Source of the DNA: a virus
Length of the DNA stretch: 33,391 nt
Virus record (IMG/VR): IMGVR_UViG_3300006803_000047
Span: 1 to 33,391 of that record
Strand: one strand, 5' to 3'
The notes under the pieces: generated by a model
Seen by the model: the letters and a program-made list of their open reading frames with translations, nothing else
Databases searched by the model: none
What the model was told of the DNA's origin: nothing
Part shown: piece after piece, positions 14,779 through 32,667 of the stretch
Layout of the letters: each line of letters starts with the position of its first letter
How positions within the stretch are numbered: position 1 is the first letter of the stretch
Translations under genes and position numbers: made by a program

Positions 14779-16710
14779 TTAAATATCCACACTTGCAGTA
14801 ATGTTAGAGAATCCTGCACTATTAATAAATATATCAACATCGATAGGGTCAGATGCACTCGTGGTAACAGTAGTAATAGTAGTACCTCCAGTGAAAGTCA
14901 TACCAGTTCCTTCAATTAGCAATTTAACATCTGTAGAAATTCTAGCCCCTTGTGCATTGTACGCACTAACTGCTACCGTACTCGCAATCTGTGCTCCTGC
15001 GTACGTGTAGCTAGTAGCAGCCGGAGTTACTGTTACAGTAAGAGGCAAACTAGGAGTTAGCAAGTGCAGTTCTGGATAATTTGTGCTACCTAAAGAAGTA
15101 CTATCTTTAGTGTACCAAATTCTATCAGTACTGTCTCTACCAATACTGGTTATTTTATAGGATAAAGTATTTGCTGTTTCCCATCCAGTAGCTGAGTTAA
15201 AAGAAATAATTAAAAAACTATAATCGTCATTAAGACCTATAAGCGTTTCTTCATCGTTTAAAAATATATGCGACTGCCAAGGAAATGGTAATACCTTCTT
15301 ACTATGAAATGTAAAGAGCCGAGGATCTGCAGCATCAATTTTCCAAGTTAATAGGGTTTTTATTGTATCATTAGTGGCATAATACCTAGGAGCATCAACC
15401 CAGATAAGCGTAATATATCTTTCCCCATTAAATTCAAATAAATGATGAGTAACGATAGAAGTGTTGTTATAAGAATTGTTCTCCCTAAACATCCCCGGAT
15501 ATAGACTATTGTTAATGACAGCATTCCAAGCATCAACACCGCTGGATTTACCAGTAAATCCTACAGATTGTCCTGCTCCTGCCTGCATTATAACATCAGT
15601 TTGTACAGTGAAGGAATCATCCGTAGTATCCCACGTCCATAGATCGGGGTGATAGTCACTATTATCGTCAATATAAACGGCGTACCAAAGTTTTGTGTTT
15701 CCTGTACCATCTCTAGGGTCAGTCATAGTTCTACTAGGTTTAGTAGGCACATGATATGGGCTGGAGTTAGCAAAGTTTCCTCCGGATGTAGTACCATCAC
15801 TCGTTAAATCATTTACATCTAGTCCTCCGGCTGATCTGGCCGTCGCCGACATCGCAGAACCAGTTATCATGGTAGTCACGGTCTGCTGGTTCGTGCCCGT
15901 ACACTTATATATGGTCGTCCGATAGGCGCTGCTCACGTTGCTGCCGGGGCTATAAGAGTTATAAACGTTCACAAATATAGGCTGAGCATCAACACTGCTT
16001 ATTCCTAGGAAAGAAGTAGAGGTATAGTTAGTAAAAGCATAGCCTGAGGTGAGGTTTTGAACGCCTGGCCAGTTAATATTGTACCCTCTCATTATCCTAT
16101 CGGTGTACCATTGATTAGTGGTATTATAGAACCTATATAGACCCCCTATCTCATTACCCGGACTGTGATAATATAACCAATAAGAAGAATTTCCCGGTCG
16201 AACGATGCTGGTCAGAGAGGGTTGATAACTCACGCCTCCGGAAAAAGCAATATCAGTTAAGTCTTGAGACTCAGATACTCCGAGACTCGTCAAGGTTACC
16301 GTGGCGCTCTCGGCCTCAGTGCCGGTCCAGGCGAAAACTGCATCAGAGGACCCATTATTCATAACAAATACGTCAGCTTTAGCTTTATAATTTCTATCCA
16401 TAGACATCCAAAACTTATGCTGATGCAAATTTAGATAGGTCGTGGGGGTCGTGTTGGTATAATTATCAAAACCCACGTAGTCTTTTGATAGAGCCATCTG
16501 GTAGCCCGGCCTATTATAAGACTGCCTGTTACTACTTGCTATACCATTTGAATTAGAGGTGGTGGTTGCAAACTTTTTATTGTAGATAGGGCTTAGAGTA
16601 GAAAAGTCATGCTTATAATCAAATAAATATAAACCATCATTTGAAACTCGTGGGTCTTCTAGGATTACGAACGCGGCGCTTGATCCTTTATAATCATAAA
16701 TTTTAGCCAT
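14779..16710 (-). CDS. Propeller-like virion protein with C-terminal Ig-like domain, 643 aa
   Basis: The first 540 residues are Trp/Tyr-rich and beta-rich, with repeated segments such as YQPSLTSIVRPGNSSYWLYY, KLWYAVYIDD and ERYITLIWVDAPRYYA. These look like blades of a beta-propeller that has no metal or FG-GAP signature. The last 95 residues (PSLPLTVTVTPAATSYTYAG onward) look like a bacterial Ig-like (Big) domain, common in phage adhesins. The ATG at 16710 has GAGGAGG 8 nt upstream, within the end of the previous gene. Parts of the gene, about 15830-15960 and 16190-16340, are visibly more GC-rich than the surroundings. It is probably a host-binding or accessory fibre protein; no enzymatic residues are evident. 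Confidence 0.6.
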   Translation of the reverse strand: MAKIYDYKGSSAAFVILEDPRVSNDGLYLFDYKHDFSTLSPIYNKKFATTTSNSNGIASSNRQSYNRPGYQMALSKDYVGFDNYTNTTPTTYLNLHQHKFWMSMDRNYKAKADVFVMNNGSSDAVFAWTGTEAESATVTLTSLGVSESQDLTDIAFSGGVSYQPSLTSIVRPGNSSYWLYYHSPGNEIGGLYRFYNTTNQWYTDRIMRGYNINWPGVQNLTSGYAFTNYTSTSFLGISSVDAQPIFVNVYNSYSPGSNVSSAYRTTIYKCTGTNQQTVTTMITGSAMSATARSAGGLDVNDLTSDGTTSGGNFANSSPYHVPTKPSRTMTDPRDGTGNTKLWYAVYIDDNSDYHPDLWTWDTTDDSFTVQTDVIMQAGAGQSVGFTGKSSGVDAWNAVINNSLYPGMFRENNSYNNTSIVTHHLFEFNGERYITLIWVDAPRYYATNDTIKTLLTWKIDAADPRLFTFHSKKVLPFPWQSHIFLNDEETLIGLNDDYSFLIISFNSATGWETANTLSYKITSIGRDSTDRIWYTKDSTSLGSTNYPELHLLTPSLPLTVTVTPAATSYTYAGAQIASTVAVSAYNAQGARISTDVKLLIEGTGMTFTGGTTITTVTTSASDPIDVDIFINSAGFSNITASVDI

Positions 16711-16711
16711 T

Positions 16712-17050
16712 TTATTGTACCTCCTCTAATTCAGCATCTGGAAAAAGATCTAAAAAAATCTCTACTCCTTGCTCTTTTGATGTGATAGGATTCTTATAGG
16801 TTGCTCCTCTACGTGGATCGTACATAAATCCTTGCATCGAACCAAAAGGACAGGTATGCTCTTCGTGCTCTTCATCATCGGCCTCTGTTAAAGGACTAAA
16901 ATGTATCTCCCATAAACCATCGGTTAAACTTACAGTTGCTAAATGGTCGTGAGTACAACGCTCTATAGCAGCACTGCCGTCCTCTAATATCTGTACTTGT
17001 CCATCTTCTCCTAGGACTGGTACAGGGTAACTTATAGTATAATTGCTCAA
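16712..17050 (-). CDS. Small acidic protein of the fibre cluster, 112 aa
   Basis: The start is a TTG at 17050 with a strong AAGGAG 7 nt upstream; that site overlaps the stop of the giant fibre gene (TAAGGAG). The product starts MSNYTISYPVPVLGEDGQVQ and is strongly acidic (ADDEEHEEH). It has a His/Cys pair region (ERCTHDHL and EHTCPFGSM) that could bind a metal. I do not recognise a family. Directly downstream of the fibre and upstream of the propeller protein, it may be a fibre chaperone or a small attachment component, an idea based only on position. Confidence 0.65.
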   Translation of the reverse strand: MSNYTISYPVPVLGEDGQVQILEDGSAAIERCTHDHLATVSLTDGLWEIHFSPLTEADDEEHEEHTCPFGSMQGFMYDPRRGATYKNPITSKEQGVEIFLDLFPDAELEEVQ

Positions 17051-17061
17051 AATTGATCTCC

Positions 17062-20000
17062 TTATGAGTAAATGAACTTAATGGACAGGTTAGTACCTGG
17101 CCCAGATATTATGTCAACAGTTATTTCATCCGCAGGCCCCACTACAACTCCCGCAGTAAAAGCAGCTTCAATGAAGGGAGCCGCGGGGGGTATAACAAAT
17201 TGCTGAACCTCAGCACCACTTCGCATCACAGAAAATATTAGAGAGGCACCAGAAGGTTGATCAACTTGTGCTCGTATCTCATGTAATGTTATCGTTTGTT
17301 GAGGTTGAAATAACTGTGTTCCAGTTAGTGGTCCTGTAAACTGTCCGGCTCTAACCAAGTAGAACGCATTGGTTCTCTTTAAGTTATACCATATAGTTCC
17401 TTCCCACACATATAAAACGCCTGTGTCTTGTGCAAAAGATAAATCCCCTAAGTTCCCTATTGCAGGAAAAGAGTTTCTAGTTGCATATACAACGGCAGGA
17501 CTAGGAGTAGGCGTAGCTTCCCAAGTATCTGTGTTCCCGTTATATTTTAATACATCCCCATTATTGGGGGTTGTTGGTATTGAAACATTAGATAGGTCTT
17601 CTAATGTATCCACATTAGATGTACCTACTATTGCTAATTCAAATTTATTTGTTCCAGTATCGTATATTAATCCTTGACCTTGAGTAGCTCCTACAGCATT
17701 CACATCTGTTAAGTCTGTTAGTGCAGCCGCGAACTCTATAGTTGTAGGAACCCACTTATCTTGATCATTGTATACTAAGTACTGTCCTTCTGTAACTCCA
17801 GTCAAATCTACGTCTGTTAATTCTGATACGGCTGTTGCTACGGTTCCGGGCTCCCACTCACTACTTGTGGAATTATACTGCAGGAATTGATTATCAGTAA
17901 CTCCCTCTAGATTTACATCGGTTAAGCCATCTAAACTAAACTCATTATCTACTGCGCTCCATTGATCTCCAATAGTATTGTATACTAGTATCTGACCTGT
18001 AGTTGGAGTAGATACACTGCTACCCATATTACTTAAAGAATCAAGAGCTCGTTCAGGTATACCCGCCTCCCACTTAGAGGTATTCTCATTCCAAATTAAA
18101 GTTTGAGATGCTGTAGGAGCTACAGTAGTATCTATATCTGATAGATTAGTAGTTGCTAAAGTCCCATTTGACCATATTCCTTCAGAGTATAATAAAAGAT
18201 CGTTGTTTTCAATGTCAGCTAAACTAATATCTGTTAGACTGGGAAGAGACACATCTCCAGGAGACCAAGTACTAGTAACACTATTATACTGTAGGTATTG
18301 TCCATCTGTAGGAAATAATGTAAAAGTGTCTACATCTGTTAAATCTCCGATACCTGCAATAAGTGACGCAGTGCTATCAGAGTCAAGGTCAATATTACTA
18401 GTATTAGAACTTACTAAAAGCTCGGTTTCAGATACAGCTCGTCCTATCTTTCCGAAGCCTGTAGCTCCAGGGAATAAGGTTCCATCTACAGCTACGTAGT
18501 AATTAGCCCCGGGTATAAGCCCTGATAGTGCAGAAACAAAACCAGAACCTGTAATAATAGTAGTAGTATCTCCAGCTAAGTAAGCACCCTCTGAAATACC
18601 TACCCAATCTGCGGCCTTGCTAGAAATAGATATATCATTCAAATTATAAGTTATTGCCTGATATCCTGTAGAGTATACTAATCTAGTTTTAAAGAGGGAT
18701 GCACAGCTGCCTACACTTGAAGTAGTCTCACTTGCTAGTAGAATTCTCGATGCGATATCAAAAACTCTGAAACCCTTATTAGACCCGTATGTTACAACTA
18801 AAGTTTTTTCATTCGCAGAAAGAGACTTCTGCCCATAATCTAAGTAAGCAGACCCAGAAGTATATAAAAGTGTGCCATCCAGCAGGCTATGAATGTACAG
18901 GTAGCCTGAATAAGTACTAGCTACAATTAAGTAATTACTATTTATCGCGATAGTATCTGCATTGTAATGAGGTACTTCTATAGTACTTACTAAATCATAG
19001 GCATAATCATATATATAAGCAGTTGCAGAATTAAGCCCGTCCTGTAAGACATCATATATGAGAATTTTACTACCGTCATCAAGCATAGCTACTTGTGTGC
19101 CAAAACTTCTAGAATTTACGGCAGAGGAATTAGGATGTTCAAAAGTATGTACTAGGTTTCCTGTATACGCATTAAATAAGAACGCCCTACCTAGAGATGC
19201 ATTACTAATAGGATCTCTATAGTTTTTGTCCCCCACTAAAAGGAAGTTTCCTTGAAAATCTATAGACTTTTGATGGTAGCCAAAGCCATTTGAAGTAGTT
19301 CTAGAGGGATCGGGGTGCTCAATTGATCTTAAGTACTCTCCAGTAGTACCTTTATAAATATGAACCTTACCCTTGCCATTAGCATAAGGATTTTCAGCTG
19401 CTATAATAGCTACTAAGTCCCCGTTTGTGGCAACAGTATTACCAAACTGCTGGTAGGTATAGCTAGTAGGAGGATATAGTACCTGTAACAATTCTCCGGA
19501 ACTAGCACTATATACAAATGCTTTTCCTGTATTTGTAATTCCTGGTAGGTCAAATTCAGGATTACCTGCTACTATTAAATCTTCATATATATCAATTGAT
19601 CTACCGTAGCCTGAGAGAGAAATATCCTGAAAGAAGTCATTTTCGAATACTGCAGTCCCTGTTATTTCCTCCGTACCCCGTATTTGAGCTACTTTAGAGT
19701 TATTAGTTATATAGACGGGCTCGCCCGCAGCAATAGAGCCTTCAGCCTCTATATTTATAAAGTTTCCGAAAACATTTCTAGCTACTGTCCACTCAAGCGC
19801 TTCACCGTCCCATTCAAGAATATCTCTATCAGTTTTAAATACATTTGTATTTACATCAGTTAATTCATCGAGAGTTGATACTTGGGAAAAAGTTTCAGGC
19901 ACCCACTGTGAGCCGTTCCAAGAAAGACTTTGCCCAACAGCTACATTAGAAATACTAACATCATTTAAGTCATTAAAAGCAAAAACATTAGAGTACCCAA

Positions 20001-23000
20001 TATCGGTAGCTTTCCATTTTCCACTCAAAGACTCAAATACCAAAGCTTGGGTATCTTCTGGAGGTGTATCAATCAAAGATACATCATCTAATTCAGTTAT
20101 ACTAGTTATAGTAGATACGAACTTACCTTCCCAGAATTGACCATTCCATGTTAAAGCATGGGAGGGGGTAAGACCACTAGAAAAATCTACGTCGCTAAGG
20201 TCTGGCATAGTAGCTACGCCAGAAATACTGCCGAGTATTAATAGTTGTTGACTATTTGTTGCAATACCTACTAAGCCATAATCAGTTGTATTTGTCGTTA
20301 GTGTACCGTCAAAGTTCGCGTAGTAATAGGTAGCAGGAACTAATCCTGAGTATACGAATGGAGTAAGCCCCCCAAGAATAACAACTTCCCCAGTCTCTCC
20401 TTGAGTCATAGTACCCGCTGCGATACCTATCCACTCACCTGCATCAGAACTAATAGCAGATTCACTTACATCGAATAGATGTACAGCTCCACGATCAATT
20501 GCAGGATTTTGCTGACTACCAGCGCTGAGATCACTATAAGGAGCGCCTGCTATAGCTTTTCCTGCGGGGGTTATAGCAACAGCCGTTCCCATTCTTTCTC
20601 CGGAAGGAGATACATTGTATCCAGGGTTATCAAAACCTCCATAATAAACAGGGGGAGCAGCATTAGAGTATACATGAATTTTTCCGGAATCAGGATAACC
20701 CTCTTTGCCAGTTTCTGAGCCTATTACTATCTGGTACTCCCCAATAGCTACGGAAACGCCAAACCTATCACCTATTGCTTCTGGGCTTTGAATAGTATGT
20801 AGTAGGGCCCCTGTAGTAGCTGAAAAGATATAAACTATGCCTTGATTTGCATTGTATCCAGGTGCTCCGACTATTATTTTTTCTGGCCAGTAAGCTAGTA
20901 CTGTTCCGAAGCCTTCTGAATCAATATTAGGATTTACTAAAGTTGCGATACTAGCAGTAGTTACACGATTTCTTATATAGATTCTACCAGTACTTAGAGT
21001 ACCTCCGGTGTCCTCGGAGGGAGCAGAAATAATTACGGACGAAGGCGTGATACTAACTACAGAACCGAAAGCATCTCCAGCGGGGGTACCCTCATCGTTA
21101 GAATTTTCAAATATTTTACTAGGAGGAATAATTGGCCATTCCTCCTCTTCTACGTCATATGAGTAACCATCAAGGTCATTAAAATCATATAAATAGGCTC
21201 TTCCCGTATTAAAGCTAGTAGGGCTATCGTAGCCTGGTGATCCGATTAAAATGGCAGTGTCATCTATAGATACAGACGCTCCGAAGTTGTCATTTGCATT
21301 TTGATTAAAAGGGCAGGGTATTATGTATACTAAACTACCAGTAGATATTCTAAAAACATATACTATGCCTGTCTGCACGGCTCCATTTATTGTTCCCTTA
21401 GGCGCACCTACTGCTAGGTAATCTCCGTAAATACTTATAGACTCTCCAAAGTATTGATTGGAAACATTTGCAATAACTTGGTAGCCCTCACGCGGGGGAT
21501 AGAAAGTTCTAACAGGAGCGTCAGTAACTGCATCATATACAGTTACAACTCCGAAGTAACTTCCAACACCCTGTGCTGAGGCTCCTGGAGCAGAGACTGC
21601 GTAATAATCACCCTGATGTGTAATAACTGAGCCAAATAACGCATAGTTACTTGGTACAGATGCAGGTATACTTGCAAGGAATGCGCCAATAGATATTTCT
21701 ACATTTTTAAATTGTCCTGTATTTCCATATAGTACTATGCTTCCTTCAGTTATATTTTCGGAAGCTACTCCTGTAATTCTCTGTCCTTCGGGTAAATCTG
21801 TTGGTCTCCATGTTGCCCCATCGAATTGTAGTACTTGATCTTCTAAAGGTGGGATAGTATCTAAGTCTACGTCTGTTAAATCATTTATTATAGCTACATT
21901 ACTAGACCCCGTAGCTGCATTAACCCATGACTGGGCTACTCCATTCCAAGTTAGAACTTGCCCTGACTGAAGTAAATTAGGTACTGGTAAAAATACATCA
22001 TCCAGCTCTCCAATATTTGAGACCCCGCCAGAAACTGCGCCTGTTACCCAGCCTGAACCATTCCAAACTAATCCATCTCCAACTTGTGGGGTAACACTTG
22101 TTACGTCGTTTAAATCATTAAGTACATTTACTTGATCAGCAGTATTAGACTCTACGTCACCTGTTATAAGTAGTGTATTTGGACTAAGCGCCTTTCCTAT
22201 AATTCCATAAGGAGAAAGTGTGAGGGTATATCCTCCGTCTACTTGCAAATAATAATTACTGCCTGCTTCCAGCCCAAATAAATTTTTTGCTACTCCTCCG
22301 AATAGCGTAACGTTCCCAACCTCTCCATCAGCAATATCTTCAAACGCTATACCTATCCATGCGTCAGCATTGGTGGTAATTTGAGAATCAAAAGTTACAA
22401 CAGCGCCAGAATTAAAATCACTACTAATTGTATTTCTAACATAGGGAGTACCTACATGATATAAGTCATTAAAGCCCTGACCTCCAATAGCTACTGAGTA
22501 ACCGAACTGCTCATTAGTAGAGTCCCCATATATATTAGGATTAGAGAAGATAGCTTCTAATTGACCTGAAGTAGCATCCAGTAAATAAGCTTTACCAGCA
22601 TTAGTATACTTCCCGCCAACATAGCCCTGCTCTTCATAAGTTGCTCCAGCTAAGAGCTTGCCCTCTTTCATATCTACGGACCAACCAAATCGATCTCCGG
22701 TTGTAGGGTTATTATAACTATTAGGATTAGTAATTACAGTTCGGAAATCTAGTGTATTCAGATCCCATATAAATACTCTGCCCTGGTCGTACCCCTCAGG
22801 GTAATCTGTATCCGAATCATAAGATCCTATAGCTAAAAGATTTGGATAAACTTGATCCCACTTTAAAGCACTTGCGAAATTATAACTAAAGCCGCCACCT
22901 AATCCAGGATTTGCTATATAGGCTACTTGTACAGGATCGATTTCCTCGTTAGAAATATCAAATATATATACGCCACCCTTGGTAGAACTTGGCCCTTCGT

Positions 23001-26000
23001 TCTTGCTAGCAACTGCAAGGTATTGTCCAGTACTATTTAAAGCTACTTTCGTACCAAACTGGTCATTATATGAGCCGCCGGTCTCATTAGGATTTGTTAT
23101 AATATGAGGAAATTGGGCCTCGCCAACAGCAGGAGACGGATTAACTATGTATACTACTCCGCTATTGATAGCTATGTTACCAGAATCAAAGGGAGCTCCG
23201 ACTGCTAATCTTTCACCTCCAAGAGATATTGAATGTCCAAATTGACTGTTATTGGGGCTATAAGACTGTACGGACCCAAATGTTGCTAGGCCGGGGTGTA
23301 CTATTTGGCTAGTTATAGCATTAGTAGTACGATTATAAAGATATACTGCTCCAGTTTGGTAGTTTAGTCCTGAATCTTCGAAAGGCGCACTAATCGCAAA
23401 TAAATTACCATGTATTGCTAAGCTAAATCCAAATCTATCATTTGCTGGGGAGGAGTTTATATTATTATTATTAATAGTTGCTTCTAGAAATCCAAGCGCA
23501 TCATATACATATACTTTACCCGAGTCGATCTCGCCTGTCTCATCTTCTCTATCCGCCGATACGAGCAGCTTATCAGTACTTGCTGCAAGACTATAGGCAA
23601 AAAAGTCATTTGAAGCAGTACCAAAAGGAGTTGGATTTTCTTTGTACCAGGCAGGCTGAAAAGGAGACTGGCCTGTTCTACTAACAGAGCCATTCAAATT
23701 GATAGAAACTACCTCTCCCTGTAGAATGTCTCCTTCGGCTATAAAGTCTTCAATGCCTCCTGAGTGCCCGTTTCTAGGATACCATCTATTAATGGAGGAA
23801 TCCCAGGTAAGTACTTGTAACTCTTTAGGAGGGTAAGAAATAACATTGACATCTACTAAATCGCCAATGAAAGCTGCGACAGCATCCCCTGTAGGTCCAG
23901 GAACCCAGTTACTGCCATCCCAAAATAAGCTTTCGCCAGCCTCAGGTACATTTCCTCCCGTAGTTGTATCTACATCTCCTAAAGAGCCTAAACTGATTGT
24001 ATCAAGACTGGGAGACCCCGGTCTAAAGACGGAATCAATAGCATTCCATACTAGTGTTTCACCCTCTAAGGGATTATTACCAAGACTCGTAATGTCTACC
24101 TCATCTAAACCGCTTAAACTTGTTACTGTAATGTTGGCAATGAGTTGAGGTTCCCACTTACTTGTAATAGAGTTATAAGCTATTACATCAGCCTCAGTTG
24201 GAGCCTGGGTTTGTAAATCTACATCTGTTAAATCATCAAGTGAAGCAACCCTAGATACCGCCCCTGGAATCCATTTATCCTCCTCAAGATTATAAACTAA
24301 AACATCGTTACTTACTGGCGTAATCTCTTGTAAGTCTACATCTGTTAAATCATCAAGTATAAATACATTTGAAGTTCCAGTCTGTTGAGGTATCCATTTA
24401 TCTAAAATAAAACTATAGACTAAAGAGTCTCCGTGCTCTAACCCCGCAGTATTAACATCACTTAACTCATTAAGAACAAAAGATCCTTGAGGAATATAAT
24501 TCGCAAGAGCCCAATGAGTTCCAGTCCATTGTATACTTTGACCAGGAGTAGGGGAGGCTACAGAAGTATCCGATAGCCCACCAAACGTAGTAATATTACT
24601 ATATCCAATTGTTTTTGGAGACCATCTATTATTTGCACTATCCCACACCAATCCTTGGTTATTAGCCGGAGGCTTAGAAACAGTATCCACATCTCGAATA
24701 TCGTTTAAGTAGCTTACACCGGTCTCAGCGCTTACTACGTTACCTGTAATTAAAAGCTCAGTTTCTGCGGTAGCTTTACCCAAAACTCCGTAATCTGTTT
24801 CGGTAAGAGTTAAAAAGCCTCTACCATCTAAATAATAGTTTTTATTAGTTTCCAGCCCTGATACAAATTTATTAACAGAACCTACTGTTGTAACAAGTAC
24901 ATCTTTATTATCTGCTACTAGTCTATCTTCTTCTACTATACCTACCCAATTGTCTGCATTACTAGTTAAGAATGAAGAACTTGAAAAAGTATGAATTTCT
25001 CCTACCCCTGCAATAGTTAAGCGAGGAGCTCCAATAATAGTATAGTCATTAGTTACTGCAAGACTGTAGCCCCAATTAATATTAGTGTCTGTAGGATTTT
25101 TAAACTCATTTAAGAATCTCCCAGTGTTTACATCAAATATGTAAACAGTACCCCAGCTAGTGCCTATGGTTCTTTCATCAGTAGCTGATGCTATTATATA
25201 GTCGTTAGATATAGCTACTGTATTACCGAACTTATCTGCTCCTCCTGATATATTCCTATCTGGATTTGTTATAGTGTAGTTAAAGTCTCCGGTAACAAGG
25301 TTATATACAAATATTTTACCCCCTTCTGAATTAGGGGCTCCTACAACTAGCCTACCGCTAGTTGATATACCCATCGAATTACCAAAGTTCCCTTCAAAGT
25401 TATTCGGGCTGGTTAAGGTATAGAGTAATCCGGCTGTAGCTGCTTGGTATACTCTGACTTCATTATTTAAGGGATGGCCTATAGCTATGTAGCCAGAAGC
25501 ACCTACAGCTACAGACTGGCCCCATCCTGTAATAGAAGGAGTAGGGCTTTGAATAGAGTGTAGTAGGTTGCCTGTTGCAGGATTGAATATATAAACAACC
25601 CCCGTATTATTATCAGATAAATTTATAGGCTCTTCAGTTATAGCTGAGACAACAATATAATCGTTGGTAATTTGTACTCTATTACCAAATTGGTCATCTA
25701 GAGTGGACGTAGATAGATTAGGATTTTCAATAGTTTCTGATAATGTAAATCCAGGTAAATCATATATGTAAATTCGTCCAGCATTGCTATTATAGCCAGG
25801 AGCACCTACTACAAAGAAATTGTCTGAGATAGATACTGATTCACCAAATTTTGTTGCAAGCCCTGGAGTTGGATTAGTAATGACCTGTAACAGTGAATTA
25901 GTAGAAGTATCGTATATTTCAATTTTACCCCCAGTAGTTGAGTTTTCAAACCCGGGAGCTCCAACAATATAGTAGTTATCTGAAACGTATACCGATTTTC

Positions 26001-29000
26001 CATAGTAGTCAGAAGCTGAAGAAGGAGTAGCTGTTGTGGTAAATAAGACTGATTCAGAACTAGAAACTTCTCCTACTTTCTCTACCTTTCCATCTGACCG
26101 AAGAGCAACTAAATCTCCTAGAACTAAGTCTTCGTGAGGTACATAGTGTGCCAAGCCTTGGCGCTCTGTAGGTCTCCACTGTCCTGTAGGCTCATCGTAC
26201 TCTAAAGTATTTCTGCTCTGTGGAAGAACGGTTTGAAGGTCTACATCGCTTAAGACAGTTAGACCGATATCAATTACTGCCCCTTCTACGCTTCTAGTAA
26301 TCCACATCTGTGTTTCTGGATCCCAGGATATAAAGTCCGCAGTATACGGATTTTCGAGGTTAACATCGTCTAGATTTTCTAGTTTAAGCCCAATTCCATA
26401 ACCGTCATCATTATTAAATCGAGTTGTTATAAAACCACTACCGGTCCATTTTACAAATCTTGAAGTATTTGCTGTTCCAATAGGAACATCCGTAAAACCT
26501 CCAACAGGAAATTGATCTAACTCAAATACATTTAAGGCATTAAGATCTTCTAAGGCTCTTGGTATTTCAGCACTGTTCCAGCTACTACCGCTCCAAATCA
26601 GAGCATCTAATGTAGATGGGCTAGCGGCATTAACATTTAATAAATCGCCAATCTCATCGGGAAAATTCTGAGCAGTCCACGCCGAACCATTATAAACAAG
26701 ACCCTGGCCTGAAGTAGCGCTGAGTACACTAACATTAGAAAGATCTGTAAGTTCTAAAGTGTTTACACTCTTGATAGTCTCAACTATATCTTTTTGTATC
26801 CACTGTCCGTTATTGCCTGCTAGTACCGAATTTTCTGCGACAGTACTATAATCAAAATCTTGTAAATCGTCAGCAGTCCAGGAGGGGGTTATGTTCTCCA
26901 TTCGAATACCAAACTCTACATTATCTACATATCGAAGAATTTGACCTGTATCACGATTGTCTATACGAACATCAGTTAGTGAATCAAGGGAAGTTGCAAG
27001 TTGAAGATCTTTAGTTGTCCATTTTTCAAGTTCTGCATCCCATACTAAAAGCTCTCCATCTCGAAGCAATCCTGGTTCAATAGCTGTATCTTTTAATTCA
27101 TCTAAGCGAATATTTACTTCTATCGCTTTATCTACGCTTTCTCCGAAAGTGACAAAATCCCCGTGCTCTAAAACATCAATATTCTTGTTTACAGTAACAT
27201 ACAAAAGATTAATATCTATGCTTGTAACTTTAGGCGCATCAATAAGTCTTGGTGAGATTACATAATCACCAATTTTTACTTCGTCATCAATTTCGGACTG
27301 AACTCTTATAAGGGTCCCATTTGTTTGCCCCTTCGAGGCTTGATTTTCAAAGTATACTTCCTGTCCTACAGATAAAAGCTCTGCGGCGCGAGTGGGATTG
27401 GTAATATTAACAGAGTCAGTACTGCCGCCGTCAACCCCGTATATATAGACATACTCAACCTCACCAAGCTCATCGTATGCTATAATATTCATACCCGAGT
27501 CGACTAAGGGAAGACGATCCTCTGTGAAATTTATTGTTACTCCGCCAGCACTAAAAGAAGCAATAGTCATAGGGCCTATGGGACCCGCGTCTTGGTCATC
27601 AAGAACTAAAGTGCCCTCCCCTCCTGTGGTCTTTACAGGTATAACTATATTAAAAGTTATTACTTCTCCGGGGATTACTTGAATTGGGTAGGATACTGTT
27701 AAACTTAAGCGATCTGCTGAAATACCCGTAATAACAGGATATTCTGTAATGCTTGATACGTATACTGCAACGCCCGGTACCACGCCTTCGGGAAGAGCAG
27801 GTTGTGTAAGAATAGTATCATATTCTCCTGGAGACATAGTAGGAGATACTACTATTCCCTCTGTACCCGCTACGTTTTGAATAACAGGAGGGGTACCAAA
27901 AGCACAAACAGCTCCTTGAGGGATTGACACTGAGCGGGAAACCGTAACAGATAGGCGATCTTCAGCAATTGATAGTATAATTGGAAAAGGTTTCGGTAGT
28001 AAGGCAACGTTATCTACAATGTCACCTGGATGAACATTTCCTGAAATTACGTCGGTAAACCCAATTATTGTACTATTACTATAAGTTTGATCAACAATAC
28101 CTTGCCCTGTCAAGATTGCGTCGTCTATACTATCTCCCTCTTCAAGAGGAGGAATTACAATAGTATCGCCATCTTCTGTTTCAACAGTTCCCTCACTACT
28201 TCCTCCACCAGGAAGAGGCCCTACGGGGGAGCCCTCATTATTGCCACCACCACTACCGCCTCCGGAAACAGTACCAGGTACCCATTTCGCCGCCTCGCTA
28301 TTCCATACTAGTGCCTGACCATTTATTGGAGCAGTAGCTGTTGTATCTACGTCGGAAAGACTGTTTAAGTTTCCTGCAATTGAAATAAAACTATTTACCC
28401 ACTTTTGAGTGGTTCCGTTCCATACCAGTGCCTGACCTGTTATAGGGCTGGCCCCTATAACTGTATCTGGGAGCGCGGAGATTGGAGGTATTGAGGGCGC
28501 ATTTGGTACCCATTTTTGACCCTGCCACTGCAAAAAATGGCCTGTGGATCTAGGGTACGATTGATCATCCATATCAACATCTAAAAGGTCTTCTAGTTTA
28601 GAGGTTAATTCGAGGGACTGAGACAACCATTGTCCGGCTTCGCTTGAATAAGTAAGCACATGTCTATCTTGCGGAATTAGGATATTAACGTCATTCAGCT
28701 CATTAATGCTTACGCCGATTTCGGCAATAATATCATTAATAAGTTTTGGAACCCATTCTGTATTAAAGTCGTCCCATGCAAATAAATGAGAGTTTGGAAT
28801 ACCCGTATTGTAATTAGTAAAAGTATCTACATCAGAAAGATTATTAATTTCTCCCTGTACCTCTGCGTAGGCTGGAACCCAATTTTGTTTATTAGTATTC
28901 CACTGCAAAAATTGTTGAGACTGAGGAGCTACAGATTTTGTGTCTACGTCTTCAAGCTCATTTAAGCTTTTGGGTACACCACTAACATCTGGGTTTGGCT

Positions 29001-31269
29001 CAATATCTCCAGTAACTAATACTTTATTACCTGCAACAGCTATTCCTATAGCACCACTGCCCACATCACTAGTACGTAGAGCCCCTCTATATATACGAGA
29101 GTTATCAATATAAATTTTGGTTCCTGGTACTAGTACTCCCCCAATACCTCCTGCAAAAGAGGTTGCCTCGGAGGTTCCACCAAGAATAGTAATTTGTCCA
29201 GTATTCCACTCAGGAAAGCCACTCTGCGGGTTAATAGGAGAGCTAAAACTTTCGTCTGCTATGCCGAACCAATCTCTAATATTAGTTATAGGATTAGTAC
29301 CAAAAGTAATAGCTTTAATACCGCCTGGCTGAGTTAGAGGAATAAGCATACGGCTTTCCTCTTTATTAGTTAGCAATACAGGCCATAGTTGGTCTGTAAT
29401 CAAAAATTCAACGTTAGAGTCATCAGAAGCTTTAATTGCGTCGTCCGTATCTACAATAGGGTAGCCACCGAATTCGGAGAAAGTAAGAAGCGTAGAATGT
29501 AAAGATACATTCCCGAGTTGGTCTTCTCTTCCCCATACAATAGTAGCACCTCGGGTGTCTTGAGACCCTATAATTGCTGGATCTATATTACTCATCTTAT
29601 AAGGAGTTTCTACAGAATCCTGGCCATTTTCAAAGGGATAGTGAGTGTATTGCGCGCCTGTATAGTTTGTGTTAGTAGTACCATTATTTGAGTTAGTAAA
29701 TCGAGTTATCCATCCTTGAGCAGGTACAGTATTTGTTCTTCTATAGGCTACCCAACATTCTGAACCACCCTTCATGAGAGTGACAAATGGGGTAGTCATA
29801 TTATCCCAAATACCGCGCGGAGTTCTAAAAGTGAGGAACAAGCCACTGACGATAGTGACAAAAGACCACCCAGTACCAAGCTCGTCAATAAATACACTTA
29901 CATGACGATTTCCGATACTATTGTAAACAGTATGAATCTGATATACTTCTTTTGTCGTAAATGGAATAGGCGGCTGAAAAAGCAGGTCTAAGCCATCGAG
30001 TTCTGCCAATCTTCCCACACCAGTACCAAGACTCTCTTGGTCCGCATAATGAAAGACAACATTTCCACTCGCTGTATCACAAGATACTGAATGAGTACCA
30101 ATAGGGGAAGATAAGGAAAAGTCAATTGGAAACTCAGACATAGTTACTGAGAAGCCTGCGAGAGTAATTACTCTTGCATACCCTATATTCGTAATTGAGT
30201 CTCTCCATGCAAATACTGTTCGTGTAGTTGCAATATCGTAAGAGACTGAAAATTCTCCACCAATGTTTTCACCAAAGTAGTGTATAGTAGGGTCGAGAGT
30301 TATTTCTATGCCTTGGTCATCTAATTCCCCTACTCGAAACTCTCCGTCTCCTGTAGTATCATTGATGTACGCAATAATATACTTTTCTTGGGCTGTGCAC
30401 CATATTGAGTGAGATTGAGAGCCTACTGCGGCTCCGAGACTTATACTCTGCCCAAATTCAGGATCAGCATATTGAATTGGAAAAGCTACAGTTTTACTAG
30501 TATCCTGAAGTCCGATGGTAACAGCACGACCTGCACTAATAGTTTCTCCAGCCGCAGCATAGACTTCCATTTTTCCTACAGTAGATGGAGTTCCTGCTAC
30601 CCAAGTGCCAGCATCATAAATTAAGCTTTCACCATCAACAGGAGGATTAGTTGTAAGATCTACATCTTGTAAACCATCAAGGTTTAAAATTGGAGTTGCT
30701 GGTACCCATTCAGAGCCATTAAACGAAAGAAGATCGTTTGTAATGGGAGGAGTAGTTGTAAGGTCTACATCTGTAAGGCCTGCAAGGTAAATATTACTAA
30801 GTGCGCCTGTAGTGACAGTCGTCCACATCTCGCTATCAGCATCGTAAGCAAGAATCTGACCGTCAGAAACGGAAGATACGTCCACATCTTGAAGAAAAGA
30901 CATGGTAGGAACTGTAGGGATATACTCACCTAAGCCATCGTAAACTAATACGCCTGTATATGTTCCAGACGCAGAAACGTCTGTGAGGTCGCTGGTAGAA
31001 TAAGGATTTGCTGCATGATATGCGGCAATGTATGAAGTGATCGCAAATTCAGTAGGAACTACCTGCTCAGGAGTTTGAGAGGATAGAGTAACATCATTTG
31101 TAAAGGCGATTACATCTAGAACTCCATCTGTAAGAGTTCCAAAAGTGAGTGTACCAAACTGAGCGTCATCGTTAGCTTCATACTTATTTGCATTTAAATA
31201 AGTAAAGTTTTCATCGAGCTCATCAAAAGTAAGTTCAGTACCTTTTACAAGGCGGAGGGTTAAAGCCAT
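17062..31269 (-). CDS. Giant modular tail fibre/adhesin, 4,735 aa (about 0.5 MDa)
   Basis: A single uninterrupted frame of 14.2 kb fills over 40% of the window. The N-terminus (MALTLRLVKGTELTFDELDE, then NFTYLN) matches the short attachment motif found at the start of many phage fibres. The chain then has about 40 copies of a 40-50 residue repeat with the pattern L-x-D-L-T-D-V-D ... P-x-x-G-x-x-L-x-W-x ... W-V-P. Interspersed are five large cassettes. Four contain seven-bladed FG-GAP-type beta-propellers; the first has a different propeller-like domain. A Gly-rich linker (28180-28265) leads into beta-barrel-like repeats at 27130-28160. The last 140 residues form a beta-sandwich-like tip. No enzymatic site is visible. 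It probably binds host surface polymers or proteins. Only CTGGA is seen before ATG 31269, a weak ribosome site. Confidence 0.85.
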   Translation of the reverse strand: MALTLRLVKGTELTFDELDENFTYLNANKYEANDDAQFGTLTFGTLTDGVLDVIAFTNDVTLSSQTPEQVVPTEFAITSYIAAYHAANPYSTSDLTDVSASGTYTGVLVYDGLGEYIPTVPTMSFLQDVDVSSVSDGQILAYDADSEMWTTVTTGALSNIYLAGLTDVDLTTTPPITNDLLSFNGSEWVPATPILNLDGLQDVDLTTNPPVDGESLIYDAGTWVAGTPSTVGKMEVYAAAGETISAGRAVTIGLQDTSKTVAFPIQYADPEFGQSISLGAAVGSQSHSIWCTAQEKYIIAYINDTTGDGEFRVGELDDQGIEITLDPTIHYFGENIGGEFSVSYDIATTRTVFAWRDSITNIGYARVITLAGFSVTMSEFPIDFSLSSPIGTHSVSCDTASGNVVFHYADQESLGTGVGRLAELDGLDLLFQPPIPFTTKEVYQIHTVYNSIGNRHVSVFIDELGTGWSFVTIVSGLFLTFRTPRGIWDNMTTPFVTLMKGGSECWVAYRRTNTVPAQGWITRFTNSNNGTTNTNYTGAQYTHYPFENGQDSVETPYKMSNIDPAIIGSQDTRGATIVWGREDQLGNVSLHSTLLTFSEFGGYPIVDTDDAIKASDDSNVEFLITDQLWPVLLTNKEESRMLIPLTQPGGIKAITFGTNPITNIRDWFGIADESFSSPINPQSGFPEWNTGQITILGGTSEATSFAGGIGGVLVPGTKIYIDNSRIYRGALRTSDVGSGAIGIAVAGNKVLVTGDIEPNPDVSGVPKSLNELEDVDTKSVAPQSQQFLQWNTNKQNWVPAYAEVQGEINNLSDVDTFTNYNTGIPNSHLFAWDDFNTEWVPKLINDIIAEIGVSINELNDVNILIPQDRHVLTYSSEAGQWLSQSLELTSKLEDLLDVDMDDQSYPRSTGHFLQWQGQKWVPNAPSIPPISALPDTVIGASPITGQALVWNGTTQKWVNSFISIAGNLNSLSDVDTTATAPINGQALVWNSEAAKWVPGTVSGGGSGGGNNEGSPVGPLPGGGSSEGTVETEDGDTIVIPPLEEGDSIDDAILTGQGIVDQTYSNSTIIGFTDVISGNVHPGDIVDNVALLPKPFPIILSIAEDRLSVTVSRSVSIPQGAVCAFGTPPVIQNVAGTEGIVVSPTMSPGEYDTILTQPALPEGVVPGVAVYVSSITEYPVITGISADRLSLTVSYPIQVIPGEVITFNIVIPVKTTGGEGTLVLDDQDAGPIGPMTIASFSAGGVTINFTEDRLPLVDSGMNIIAYDELGEVEYVYIYGVDGGSTDSVNITNPTRAAELLSVGQEVYFENQASKGQTNGTLIRVQSEIDDEVKIGDYVISPRLIDAPKVTSIDINLLYVTVNKNIDVLEHGDFVTFGESVDKAIEVNIRLDELKDTAIEPGLLRDGELLVWDAELEKWTTKDLQLATSLDSLTDVRIDNRDTGQILRYVDNVEFGIRMENITPSWTADDLQDFDYSTVAENSVLAGNNGQWIQKDIVETIKSVNTLELTDLSNVSVLSATSGQGLVYNGSAWTAQNFPDEIGDLLNVNAASPSTLDALIWSGSSWNSAEIPRALEDLNALNVFELDQFPVGGFTDVPIGTANTSRFVKWTGSGFITTRFNNDDGYGIGLKLENLDDVNLENPYTADFISWDPETQMWITRSVEGAVIDIGLTVLSDVDLQTVLPQSRNTLEYDEPTGQWRPTERQGLAHYVPHEDLVLGDLVALRSDGKVEKVGEVSSSESVLFTTTATPSSASDYYGKSVYVSDNYYIVGAPGFENSTTGGKIEIYDTSTNSLLQVITNPTPGLATKFGESVSISDNFFVVGAPGYNSNAGRIYIYDLPGFTLSETIENPNLSTSTLDDQFGNRVQITNDYIVVSAITEEPINLSDNNTGVVYIFNPATGNLLHSIQSPTPSITGWGQSVAVGASGYIAIGHPLNNEVRVYQAATAGLLYTLTSPNNFEGNFGNSMGISTSGRLVVGAPNSEGGKIFVYNLVTGDFNYTITNPDRNISGGADKFGNTVAISNDYIIASATDERTIGTSWGTVYIFDVNTGRFLNEFKNPTDTNINWGYSLAVTNDYTIIGAPRLTIAGVGEIHTFSSSSFLTSNADNWVGIVEEDRLVADNKDVLVTTVGSVNKFVSGLETNKNYYLDGRGFLTLTETDYGVLGKATAETELLITGNVVSAETGVSYLNDIRDVDTVSKPPANNQGLVWDSANNRWSPKTIGYSNITTFGGLSDTSVASPTPGQSIQWTGTHWALANYIPQGSFVLNELSDVNTAGLEHGDSLVYSFILDKWIPQQTGTSNVFILDDLTDVDLQEITPVSNDVLVYNLEEDKWIPGAVSRVASLDDLTDVDLQTQAPTEADVIAYNSITSKWEPQLIANITVTSLSGLDEVDITSLGNNPLEGETLVWNAIDSVFRPGSPSLDTISLGSLGDVDTTTGGNVPEAGESLFWDGSNWVPGPTGDAVAAFIGDLVDVNVISYPPKELQVLTWDSSINRWYPRNGHSGGIEDFIAEGDILQGEVVSINLNGSVSRTGQSPFQPAWYKENPTPFGTASNDFFAYSLAASTDKLLVSADREDETGEIDSGKVYVYDALGFLEATINNNNINSSPANDRFGFSLAIHGNLFAISAPFEDSGLNYQTGAVYLYNRTTNAITSQIVHPGLATFGSVQSYSPNNSQFGHSISLGGERLAVGAPFDSGNIAINSGVVYIVNPSPAVGEAQFPHIITNPNETGGSYNDQFGTKVALNSTGQYLAVASKNEGPSSTKGGVYIFDISNEEIDPVQVAYIANPGLGGGFSYNFASALKWDQVYPNLLAIGSYDSDTDYPEGYDQGRVFIWDLNTLDFRTVITNPNSYNNPTTGDRFGWSVDMKEGKLLAGATYEEQGYVGGKYTNAGKAYLLDATSGQLEAIFSNPNIYGDSTNEQFGYSVAIGGQGFNDLYHVGTPYVRNTISSDFNSGAVVTFDSQITTNADAWIGIAFEDIADGEVGNVTLFGGVAKNLFGLEAGSNYYLQVDGGYTLTLSPYGIIGKALSPNTLLITGDVESNTADQVNVLNDLNDVTSVTPQVGDGLVWNGSGWVTGAVSGGVSNIGELDDVFLPVPNLLQSGQVLTWNGVAQSWVNAATGSSNVAIINDLTDVDLDTIPPLEDQVLQFDGATWRPTDLPEGQRITGVASENITEGSIVLYGNTGQFKNVEISIGAFLASIPASVPSNYALFGSVITHQGDYYAVSAPGASAQGVGSYFGVVTVYDAVTDAPVRTFYPPREGYQVIANVSNQYFGESISIYGDYLAVGAPKGTINGAVQTGIVYVFRISTGSLVYIIPCPFNQNANDNFGASVSIDDTAILIGSPGYDSPTSFNTGRAYLYDFNDLDGYSYDVEEEEWPIIPPSKIFENSNDEGTPAGDAFGSVVSITPSSVIISAPSEDTGGTLSTGRIYIRNRVTTASIATLVNPNIDSEGFGTVLAYWPEKIIVGAPGYNANQGIVYIFSATTGALLHTIQSPEAIGDRFGVSVAIGEYQIVIGSETGKEGYPDSGKIHVYSNAAPPVYYGGFDNPGYNVSPSGERMGTAVAITPAGKAIAGAPYSDLSAGSQQNPAIDRGAVHLFDVSESAISSDAGEWIGIAAGTMTQGETGEVVILGGLTPFVYSGLVPATYYYANFDGTLTTNTTDYGLVGIATNSQQLLILGSISGVATMPDLSDVDFSSGLTPSHALTWNGQFWEGKFVSTITSITELDDVSLIDTPPEDTQALVFESLSGKWKATDIGYSNVFAFNDLNDVSISNVAVGQSLSWNGSQWVPETFSQVSTLDELTDVNTNVFKTDRDILEWDGEALEWTVARNVFGNFINIEAEGSIAAGEPVYITNNSKVAQIRGTEEITGTAVFENDFFQDISLSGYGRSIDIYEDLIVAGNPEFDLPGITNTGKAFVYSASSGELLQVLYPPTSYTYQQFGNTVATNGDLVAIIAAENPYANGKGKVHIYKGTTGEYLRSIEHPDPSRTTSNGFGYHQKSIDFQGNFLLVGDKNYRDPISNASLGRAFLFNAYTGNLVHTFEHPNSSAVNSRSFGTQVAMLDDGSKILIYDVLQDGLNSATAYIYDYAYDLVSTIEVPHYNADTIAINSNYLIVASTYSGYLYIHSLLDGTLLYTSGSAYLDYGQKSLSANEKTLVVTYGSNKGFRVFDIASRILLASETTSSVGSCASLFKTRLVYSTGYQAITYNLNDISISSKAADWVGISEGAYLAGDTTTIITGSGFVSALSGLIPGANYYVAVDGTLFPGATGFGKIGRAVSETELLVSSNTSNIDLDSDSTASLIAGIGDLTDVDTFTLFPTDGQYLQYNSVTSTWSPGDVSLPSLTDISLADIENNDLLLYSEGIWSNGTLATTNLSDIDTTVAPTASQTLIWNENTSKWEAGIPERALDSLSNMGSSVSTPTTGQILVYNTIGDQWSAVDNEFSLDGLTDVNLEGVTDNQFLQYNSTSSEWEPGTVATAVSELTDVDLTGVTEGQYLVYNDQDKWVPTTIEFAAALTDLTDVNAVGATQGQGLIYDTGTNKFELAIVGTSNVDTLEDLSNVSIPTTPNNGDVLKYNGNTDTWEATPTPSPAVVYATRNSFPAIGNLGDLSFAQDTGVLYVWEGTIWYNLKRTNAFYLVRAGQFTGPLTGTQLFQPQQTITLHEIRAQVDQPSGASLIFSVMRSGAEVQQFVIPPAAPFIEAAFTAGVVVGPADEITVDIISGPGTNLSIKFIYS
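18389..19760 (-). repeat. Fibre cassette E: split beta module with FG-GAP propeller
   Basis: It opens with NFINIEAEGSIAAGEPVYI and closes with DWVGISEG ... GANYYVAVDGTL ... ETELLVSS. Between lie seven propeller blades, of which several have lost the FG pair (GYGRS, QFGNT, GFGYH, SFGTQ, NADTI, DYGQK, GSCAS). It is the most degenerate of the four propellers. Boundaries are approximate. Confidence 0.75.
20219..21782 (-). repeat. Fibre cassette D: split beta module with FG-GAP propeller
   Basis: It opens with ITGVASENITEGSIVLYG and closes with EWIGIAAG ... ATYYYANFDGTL ... QQLLILG. Seven blades are marked by LFGSV, YFGES, NFGAS, AFGSV, GFGTV, RFGVS and RMGTA, usually followed by a V-G-A-P or I-S-A-P turn and a V-Y-V-F strand. 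Boundaries are approximate. Confidence 0.8.
22145..23765 (-). repeat. Fibre cassette C: split beta module with FG-GAP propeller
   Basis: It opens with IEDFIAEGDILQGEVVSI and closes with AWIGIAFED ... SNYYLQVDGGYTLT ... NTLLITG. Seven blades are marked by FFAYS, RFGFS, QFGHS, QFGTK, NFASA, RFGWS and QFGYS. Boundaries are approximate. Confidence 0.8.
24720..26158 (-). repeat. Fibre cassette B: split beta module with FG-GAP propeller
   Basis: It opens with YVPHEDLVLGDLVALRSDG and closes with NWVGIVEED ... KNYYLDGRGFLTL ... TELLITG. Seven blades are marked by YYGKS, KFGES, QFGNR, GWGQS, NFGNS, KFGNT and NWGYS. This is the most regular propeller, with blades of about 55-60 residues. Boundaries are approximate. 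Confidence 0.8.
28990..30580 (-). repeat. Fibre cassette A: split beta module with a different propeller
   Basis: It opens with VYAAAGETISAGRAVTIG and closes with DWFGIADE ... GTKIYIDNSRIY ... NKVLVTG, the same bracket as cassettes B-E. The insert lacks FG-GAP signatures. Instead it has blades with inner strands such as KYIIAYIND, TRTVFAWRD and GNVVFHYAD, alternating with outer strands such as GRLAELDGLDLLFQPP. Boundaries are approximate. Confidence 0.65.
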
Positions 31270-31272
31270 TTT

Positions 31273-31560
31273 CTATCCAGTAATTACTAATGCTGCTATT
31301 CCAGCGGTAATCAATCCTGTCACAGCGATCCATAATAATTTAGTAATGCTCTGCAGAATGCGGTCATGAGAATCAAGGTCTCGTGAAGTGACCGATTGCA
31401 TAATTTCTAAGTCGGTAAGTCGTGATTCAATTTTGTCTCTTGAACTTCCGAGGTCTGAAATTTGCTCTTCTATCCTTGCTAAAGCAACTACAAGCTCTGT
31501 GAGCTTATCAATTTTATTCTCTATGCGGTCTATACGGTTATTCTGTAGTTCCAGCTCCAT
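31273..31560 (-). CDS. Coiled-coil protein with C-terminal membrane anchor, 95 aa
   Basis: Residues 1-70 form a charged helix with heptad spacing (NRIDRIENKIDKLTELVVAL). Residues 74-93 are a single hydrophobic membrane segment (LLWIAVTGLITAGIAALVI). This build matches XhlA-like or holin-accessory proteins of phages, which sit in the inner membrane with the coil in the cytoplasm. A lysis-related role is therefore possible, but no endolysin or spanin is visible in the window and a tail-associated membrane role cannot be excluded. It overlaps the end of the probable terS gene by 23 nt and is followed 3 nt later by the giant fibre gene. The ribosome site is weak (GATGGA about 13 nt upstream). Confidence 0.65.
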   Translation of the reverse strand: MELELQNNRIDRIENKIDKLTELVVALARIEEQISDLGSSRDKIESRLTDLEIMQSVTSRDLDSHDRILQSITKLLWIAVTGLITAGIAALVITG

Positions 31561-32008
31561 TTAATAGTTTTTCCATCAACTTGCCGTAGTTGCCTTGCCC
31601 AAAAGGGATTCCTTCATTTATCTGAACATTGGTTTGACTACGAATAGCCGTTGATTGAGCTTTCTCAAGCTCCGCGAGTGCTTTAATCTCGTCCATTCTC
31701 ATTTTATGTGCCATCATCATAAGATCCGCAAGGTCTTTTGATGTGTACATTCCACTTTCTTGAGCTTCTTCAAGCTTTGCACTAATAATTTCATCAAGTA
31801 CTGAGGCTATATTCCCTCTGTTTCGATACCCCATGTCTAGATATACAGTATCAACGTATTTTTTTACTTCTCGAGTATTTAAAATTTCTACAATTCGTGA
31901 CTCTGGTACCGACATATACGCACATACGTCTTTAATGTTACCGTATTGTAGGTAACAATTAGCTACTTCAACTCCTTCAGGAGATATTGTGGAAACTTCT
32001 TTTGACAT
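31538..32008 (-). CDS. Probable terminase small subunit, 156 aa
   Basis: It is all-helical with three parts. A helix-turn-helix-like N-terminus (residues 10-45: ISPEGVEVANCYLQYGNIKD, then VCAYMSVPESRIVEIL) would recognise DNA. A central helical hairpin (65-118, including SKDLADLMMMAHKMRMDEIK) would form the ring. A short tail carries TNVQINEGIPFGQGNYG. This plan fits small terminases, which recognise phage DNA and load the large subunit. The frame extends to a TTG at 32044, but that triplet is part of the promoter -35 box, so ATG 32008 is the earliest reasonable start. The predicted transcript begins about one base upstream, so the mRNA may be leaderless. It could instead be another HTH regulator. 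Confidence 0.55.
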   Translation of the reverse strand: MSKEVSTISPEGVEVANCYLQYGNIKDVCAYMSVPESRIVEILNTREVKKYVDTVYLDMGYRNRGNIASVLDEIISAKLEEAQESGMYTSKDLADLMMMAHKMRMDEIKALAELEKAQSTAIRSQTNVQINEGIPFGQGNYGKLMEKLLNGAGTTE

Positions 32009-32015
32009 GACATAA

Positions 32016-32044
32016 ATTATACAGTAGGAGATATCCGTTGTCAA
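32016..32044 (-). promoter_or_regulatory. Perfect-consensus sigma-70 promoter for terS/fibre operon
   Basis: On the minus strand TTGACA (32039-32044), a 17-bp spacer and TATAAT (32016-32021) are all exact. The predicted start near 32009 is next to the ATG at 32008. It probably drives terS, the membrane protein and the giant fibre gene. Confidence 0.8.
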
Positions 32045-32088: not shown

Positions 32089-32667
32089 TTAGAAGTTGTA
32101 AGAGAGTTCTACAACGTGTGTTTCTTCCGCTACACCAGTATCAAACTTGTATCCGAGGGAGAAGTGCTCAAATGAACGTGCAATTCCTACACCGGAATGG
32201 TCAGTACCTGCGAAGGCAGTAACATCGAAGTCCGCAATTTTTCTAGAAACGCTTCCCACGTAGTATTCAGCCTGTGTTTCCAGGTCATGATAGACGTATG
32301 CAGAAAACATACCATAACTTGCGCCAAAGTAGAGCTCCTGTGCTTCGTCGCTCAACTCTACCGCGTCACCGTAGTAGTCATACTGTAGGTATCCAAAGTC
32401 AACCGACAGGGAATCCGTAAGTTTGGGGGCGAAACCAACGAGGTAGTTTGCCTCCGTAGAAGCTTCAACACCTTTCAAGGTTGACGCCCAGAAAGTTCCA
32501 TACAATCCGGCATCACTTTTCGCTGTAAGAGAGACTTGGAGCGCGGGGTCTTCCTCCGTTTGCGTTACTCCTCGAAAAACATATTGTGAACTTAAACCAA
32601 TGCTTCCAGAAACTTCAGCAAGTGCTTCGCCTCCGAAAATCAACAGTCCCATAATTAAATACTTCAT
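32089..32667 (-). CDS. TorF-like outer-membrane beta-barrel protein, 192 aa
   Basis: It has a signal peptide (MKYLIMGLLIFGGEALA, cleavage likely before EVSG). The mature start GSIGLSSQYVFRGVTQTEED matches the signature S-x-x-Y-V-F-R-G-V-x-Q of the TorF/TIGR02001 putative porin family of proteobacteria. Alternating strands follow, including FGYLQYDYYG and YFGASYGMFSAYVYHD. It ends in a terminal Phe (VVELSYNF), the signal read by the outer-membrane assembly machinery. It is a single-gene unit with its own promoter, AAAGGAG ribosome site and terminator, at the edge of the morphogenesis block. It is most likely a host-modifying cargo gene that changes the cell surface, for example to exclude other phages. 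That role is inferred. Confidence 0.8.
   Translation of the reverse strand: MKYLIMGLLIFGGEALAEVSGSIGLSSQYVFRGVTQTEEDPALQVSLTAKSDAGLYGTFWASTLKGVEASTEANYLVGFAPKLTDSLSVDFGYLQYDYYGDAVELSDEAQELYFGASYGMFSAYVYHDLETQAEYYVGSVSRKIADFDVTAFAGTDHSGVGIARSFEHFSLGYKFDTGVAEETHVVELSYNF

Follow-up and report, generated by a model that had tools for sequence, protein, structure and literature searches.

A giant modular gene between the terminase genes of a viral contig, encoding a candidate adhesion fibre with integrin-like propellers

The giant gene and its locus

The window, by which we mean the whole stretch of DNA analysed here (33,391 bases, the full length of its IMG/VR record), carries on its minus strand a single open reading frame of 4,735 codons that lies among head, packaging and tail genes. 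The initial annotation had placed an intact frame of this length at 17062–31269 without stating a strand, and we recovered exactly that frame. Read on the plus strand, the same bases contain 278 stops, and 50 residue shuffles of the protein produced no repeat domain above 10 bits; together with the open minus-strand frame, these controls rule out a chance or wrong-strand reading. The predicted protein has a mass of 506.5 kDa, a pI of 4.06 and 0.1% cysteine. The features around it are listed below in the order in which the minus strand is read; identities refer to G012, a near-complete relative on a 95.8-kb contig, unless stated otherwise.

32089–32667, minus strand: 192-aa protein scoring 58.5 bits (cut-off 24) against Gcw_chp, a Pfam family of bacterial proteins with no known function; adjoins terS
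31538–32044, minus strand: terminase small subunit (phrog_3802, 1.3e-37); left border of the block
31273–31560, minus strand: 95-aa holin/XhlA-like gene directly upstream of the fibre gene; a weak assignment (weak phrog_689/1193, sub-threshold XhlA)
17062–31269, minus strand: giant fibre gene, 4,735 aa; ATG start, single frame with no internal stop
16712–17050, minus strand: 112-aa downstream gene; begins with TTG, preceded by AAGGAG; counterpart 38% identical
14779–16710, minus strand: 643-aa downstream gene, block member; phrog_20698/22549 at its C-terminus; 54% identical
12145–14775, minus strand: 876-aa downstream gene, block member; no family match; 42% identical
9951–11255, minus strand: terminase large subunit (phrog_2, 4.4e-48; 51% identity with Vibrio T5-like phages); bounds the block on the right
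5959–8115, minus strand: head protease and major capsid protein as one 718-aa frame

The neighbours of the giant gene are TerS, TerL, portal, the protease–capsid frame, adaptor, terminator, major tail protein and tape measure. Judged by TerL homology and by the gene order from terS to the major tail protein, the window belongs to a T5-like head and packaging lineage. The protease and capsid are two genes in phages PG07 and fuchur and single frames of 672–681 aa in G012, L040 and L079. Rfam and tRNA scans of the window gave no matches.

The two terminase genes lie 20.3 kb apart, and the fibre gene with the three genes downstream of it makes up a block of 18–19 kb. Among 80 terminase relatives the terS–terL gap could be measured in 24, where it spans 1.1–6.4 kb and contains homologues of neither the fibre C-terminus nor the 643- and 876-aa proteins. 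In fibre-bearing relatives the fibre is followed by genes of 92–112, 586–649 and 849–901 aa. On the TerL tree the fibre must have been gained or lost at least twice, a single event being allowed in 0% of bootstraps, although recombination at terL could also contribute to this patchy distribution. The relative L010, whose terminase is sister to that of the fibre-bearing G008 (L121/G008), has a 2.8-kb gap without the fibre, so that the pair, with and without the block, offers a natural comparison for block exchange.

Rod repeats, cassettes and end domains

Using a profile HMM trained on the giant protein's own repeats, we scored 39 copies of the pattern L-x-x-L-x-D-V-D...G-x-x-L-x-W...W-V-P, in agreement with the roughly 41 counted earlier once the uncertainty over degenerate copies is allowed for. 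These repeats fall into seven rod groups (R1–R7) separated by six cassettes (C1–C6), one more than the five originally described, and the two ends are formed by domains of their own:

30991–31269, minus strand: N-terminal domain, residues 1–93; LRxVKGTELTFxELDxNFTYL motif; 67% identical in G012
30580–30990, minus strand: rod group R1, residues 94–230; 4 repeats (HMM, as for all rod groups)
28966–30579, minus strand: cassette C1, residues 231–768; C-terminal frame domain in common with C3–C6 (hhalign to the C5 frame)
28264–28965, minus strand: R2, residues 769–1002; 6 repeats
27067–28263, minus strand: C2, residues 1003–1401; Gly-rich linker and a region of variable length; no FG-GAP match
26167–27066, minus strand: R3, residues 1402–1701; 6 scored repeats and further degenerate ones
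24709–26166, minus strand: C3, residues 1702–2187; predicted FG-GAP propeller in a split frame domain (Pfam FG-GAP_2; own-profile blades)
23767–24708, minus strand: R4, residues 2188–2501; 8 repeats
22123–23766, minus strand: C4, residues 2502–3049; predicted FG-GAP propeller, 7 blade matches
21790–22122, minus strand: R5, residues 3050–3160; 3 repeats
20206–21789, minus strand: C5, residues 3161–3688; predicted FG-GAP propeller, 7 blade matches (AlphaFold2 and Foldseek)
19780–20205, minus strand: R6, residues 3689–3830; 4 repeats
18352–19779, minus strand: C6, residues 3831–4306; predicted degenerate FG-GAP propeller in a frame domain of the C3–C5 type
17503–18351, minus strand: R7, residues 4307–4589; 8 repeats
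17065–17502, minus strand: C-terminal cap domain, residues 4590–4735; the most conserved module (79% identical in G012, 44% in L121)

The beads-on-a-string layout proposed in the initial annotation thus holds: rods and globular domains take turns along a single uninterrupted gene, and its homologues keep them in register. Profile searches of repeats and heads, suggested there as a check, identified four of the heads as FG-GAP propellers and matched the rods to phage structural families. Specifically, the rods match phrog_677, 'baseplate wedge tail fiber protein connector' (1e-23), and phrog_9627 (1.2e-79), and a profile search of annotated phage proteins found the repeat in Salicola phage SCTP-2 gp17, in the S-MbCM6 connector and in the putative tail fibre of a Mesorhizobium phage (Cp1R7A-A1). 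Modular rod repeats are therefore common to the giant protein and to annotated phage fibre and structural proteins; they are absent from the 1,348 ORFs of the 80 relatives with the same terminase.

By sequence profile, the four heads C3–C6 are integrin-type FG-GAP beta-propellers. They match Pfam PF14312 (FG-GAP_2) at E=2.6e-76, with 252 bits against a cut-off of 23 over 16 stretches, and a profile derived from blades of the window itself finds seven blades each in C4 and C5, six in C3 and three in C6. The sequence profile of the FG-GAP heads alone also matches integrin alpha-X (E 0.0013). All four are flanked by an N-terminal piece, 'AEGxIxxGxxV', and a C-terminal frame piece, 'WIGIAxE...G.T...GGV...SGLxPGxxYYxxxDGxLT...YGxIGxAxSxTELLITGxV'. 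C1 carries the same C-terminal piece (hhalign against the C5 frame, probability 97.8, E 9e-13) and a recognisable N-terminal one, and because both pieces are common to them, C1 and the C3–C6 heads seem to be different inserts in one split frame domain. C2 holds a GGGSGGG linker and a region of 321 aa in G012, 399 in the window and 590 in L121. Its size range apparently comes from the copy number of a unit resembling ISxDRLxITVxxxVxVxxGxxLxF (L121 residues 265–854, window residues 1003–1401).

Structure prediction, also proposed at the outset, succeeded in part. We ran AlphaFold2 on C5 with its flanks as a monomer, using eight paralogous or homologous rows, and obtained a propeller with pLDDT mostly 80–93 over most of the ring; C5 is the sole propeller with a usable model. 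In a Foldseek search of the PDB, integrin alpha chains took all the listed top places (E about 1e-15, probability 1.00, 15–17% identity), which supports an integrin-type propeller fold for the modelled C5. Among its matches to viral models were the cyanophage S-TIM5 'virion structural protein and packaging' and the Agrobacterium phage Atu_ph07 'hemagglutinin'. Much of the rod group after C5 fell below pLDDT 50 as a monomer, and the model of C1 was unusable (pLDDT 34); the strand pattern of C1 hints at a propeller, and we build no claim on it.

The first ~40 residues of the protein resemble the starts of short proteins on other contigs, and the N-terminal domain is probably a virion anchor. A counterpart of the C-terminal domain (42% identity) closes a 685-aa protein of another phage, encoded at 8369–10426 of L151 in a run of structural-looking genes; a search of 84,980 bacterial and archaeal genomes found no homologue of this domain. 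At the sequence level, no receptor-binding or lytic domain was recognised in the giant protein, and no credible solved relative was found for the rods, the N- and C-termini or the 643- and 876-aa proteins.

Conservation, integrity and selection

Contigs with five IMG sample numbers, one of which may share the window's source, reproduce the giant gene collinearly over 2,475–4,735 codons. One spans the entire frame with 2 differences from the window; the others are 2–3% diverged over 2,475–4,175 codons, and in one of these the alignment shifts once, by 3 bases and in frame. At greater distance, G012 encodes a complete homologue of 4,647 aa in which all cassettes and all rod groups keep register with the window (51.9% identity across 4,577 positions), and L121/G008 encodes one of at least 4,070 aa (cut by the contig end) that is ~35% identical overall and 29–51% by module, its modules again lining up with the window's once the end of C1 is reached. 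Short-read assembly can go wrong at long internal repeats, and the initial annotation had listed a chimera of misassembled repeats among the findings that would overturn its reading; since the five other sample numbers are collinear and one module order is kept in homologues at 52% and ~35% identity, we rule out a chimera of several repeat-containing genes, whose probability we regard as negligible.

The inference that so long an open frame implies selection was borne out: against the 2–3% diverged copies the gene is under purifying selection, with dN/dS of ~0.2 (dS 0.074, dN 0.017, ratio 0.23 for one contig pair over 3,570 codons). Comparing heads with rods, we found no consistent rise of dN/dS in the heads, a result that speaks against very fast change over short periods. 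Over longer distances, the fibre is 52% identical in G012 compared with 85–91% for the neighbouring TerS, TerL, portal and major capsid proteins, suggesting that it evolves much faster than its packaging neighbours, as is often seen in adhesion proteins. In one contig pair, synonymous divergence was 0.18 in R4 (window 23767–24708) and 0.015 in R7, a contrast that suggests mosaic recombination inside the giant gene.

Proposed function and comparison with known systems

We consider it probable that the giant protein is an accessory adhesion fibre attached to the virion of an uncultivated marine siphovirus whose head and packaging genes are T5-like. An adhesion filament fits because the protein joins rods, beads and conserved ends, is 52% identical where its neighbours are 85–91% identical, and is patchily present. 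In such a fibre, the short N-terminal domain would anchor the filament to the virion, the LxDVD repeats in groups of 3–8 would act as flexible or rod-like spacers, the four integrin-type propellers and C1 would be carried as beads, each inside the common split frame domain that joins the rods, and the conserved C-terminal domain would cap the tip. Several adhesive surfaces on one long filament could then provide multivalent, reversible capture of the cell surface before a separate tail-tip (J-type) protein commits the particle to infection, and the fibre with its three downstream genes would travel as an exchangeable block between terS and terL. Virion presence, attachment point, oligomeric state and receptor binding are parts of this model that we infer. 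Host binding by the heads, as initially proposed, should be read in the same way, the near-complete relative G012 having a separate J-type tip fibre.

Downstream of its tape measure, G012 encodes a tail-tip cluster of minor tail proteins, a tail assembly protein and a J-type protein, a relative of 'central tail fiber J' of 1,874 aa with an S74 chaperone. Because this cluster is complete and separate, the giant fibre is probably additional to the tip, and an additional, exchangeable adhesion fibre beside the tail tip is the most likely arrangement. G012 also has a second large-protein cluster (556, 733 and 780 aa) far from its head and tail genes, at 1482–9062 of L138 (G012 80001–95808), one protein of which matches phrog_1645, a virion structural protein.

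Several observations count against the adhesion-fibre reading: the sequence shows no known receptor-binding or lytic domain; the rods modelled poorly as monomers; the tip is conserved, unlike classical receptor-binding tips, which vary most; the heads lack a consistent dN/dS rise over the rods; and the genes sit in the packaging and head block, away from the tail-tip genes. At 79% identity the C-terminal 146 aa are better conserved than any other part, and a fold-and-cap or conserved-ligand role suits them better than that of a variable receptor tip. The position of the block between terS and terL, within head and packaging genes, and the separate tail-tip cluster of G012 would also suit a filament attached to the head or neck, such as a whisker or capsid fibre, that raises particle capture by cells or surface layers. 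The jumbo phage Atu_ph07 bears hair-like fibres on its head and tail sheath, and its relative AP-J-162 encodes an integrin-like 'hemagglutinin' (PMC11242549). Gene position, however, does not fix an attachment site, and no capsid-binding domain was recognised in the N-terminus; we hold this alternative to be unlikely, if worth keeping in view. Combining both ideas, a horizontally exchanged four-gene terS–terL cassette might equip T5-like marine phages with an extra ~0.5-MDa filament, mounted on the head or neck and bearing at least four integrin-type propellers, giving multivalent long-range adhesion independent of the tail-tip receptor-binding protein, a proposal that we put forward as speculative and rather doubtful.

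A 507-kDa protein of repeated modular units might instead be a precursor that proteolysis cuts into several proteins, as precursor processing occurs in other phage structural proteins; a Pfam search matched no self-cleaving chaperone or protease domain in it, and we judge this improbable. Slightly less credible still is a protein that the infected cell displays on its surface or secretes, for instance for superinfection block or cell–cell binding: integrin-like FG-GAP propellers are common in surface proteins, but the N-terminus, MALTLRLVKGTELTFDELDENF, shows by inspection no hydrophobic signal peptide, and where its repeats or propellers recur in phages, the annotation is that of a virion structural or tail protein. 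Should the giant protein prove to be an adhesion filament, multivalent host capture could be tested on it in an abundant lineage of marine phages, as could the swapping of an adhesion module at a fixed terS–terL site, for which close relatives that have and lack the block allow comparison.

The length of the fibre is not unprecedented: the earlier yardstick of 1,000–1,300 residues is too low, and structural proteins that match or exceed the fibre in length are known from other phages. The Synechococcus phage S-MbCM6 protein YP_007001806.1 (7,022 aa, T4-GC_108) is likewise a giant marine-phage protein annotated as virion structural, with an FG-GAP propeller of five scored blades at residues 4453–4705; its N-terminus differs from that of the window's protein, and its gene lies in a myovirus, within the T4-like baseplate cluster. 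As a profile search found no LxDVD rod repeats in this protein (S-MbCM6_080) and the window locus is terS–terL rather than a baseplate cluster, membership of T4-GC_108 is ruled out. The Sinorhizobium phage Phosso proteins XYS97267.1 and XYS97266.1 (3,692 and 3,162 aa) carry FG-GAP arrays with 36 and 17 blade matches, but lack LxDVD repeats and belong to a jumbo phage of a soil alphaproteobacterium. A Sinorhizobium jumbo phage has also been reported to encode both a 4,455-aa structural protein and a 'hemagglutinin' similar to human integrin (PMC11242549). In the literature that we could search, where phage FG-GAP fibres hardly figure, we found no description of several integrin-type propellers threaded on rods in one phage chain, nor a published one of a fibre block between terminase genes.

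Smaller phage proteins resemble single parts of the fibre. Cyanophage S-TIM5 gp54 (YP_007006169.1, 407 aa), annotated as a virion structural protein, is a stand-alone seven-blade FG-GAP propeller without rods and ten times shorter; Salicola phage SCTP-2 gp17 (1,910 aa) has 37 rod-repeat profile matches like the window's rods, but they are near-continuous and without FG-GAP heads; and the T4-like 'baseplate wedge tail fiber protein connector' (phrog_677; S-MbCM6_081) has three rod-repeat copies in 409 aa and no heads. Outside phages, the integrin alpha-subunit headpiece has the FG-GAP beta-propeller fold in common with the window's heads at 15–17% identity; integrin alpha is, however, a eukaryotic receptor whose thigh and calf domains the window lacks, and a shared fold is no proof of shared function.

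The T5 L-shaped tail fibre (pb1/Ltf) is encoded among the tail genes and ends in a self-cleaving chaperone; the giant fibre has no S74 match and lies between terS and terL, and we reject its identity with pb1/Ltf. At the level of the locus there is a parallel with the T5-like phages (Demerecviridae, for example Vibrio phage vB_VpS_PG07), which have the window's order of TerS, TerL, portal, protease, major capsid protein, adaptor, terminator and tail tube and, in Vibrio members, a TerL 51% identical over 97%. They differ in that terS and terL nearly touch in PG07, with no fibre block between them, and in that the window's relative G012 has lambda-like tail-tip proteins.
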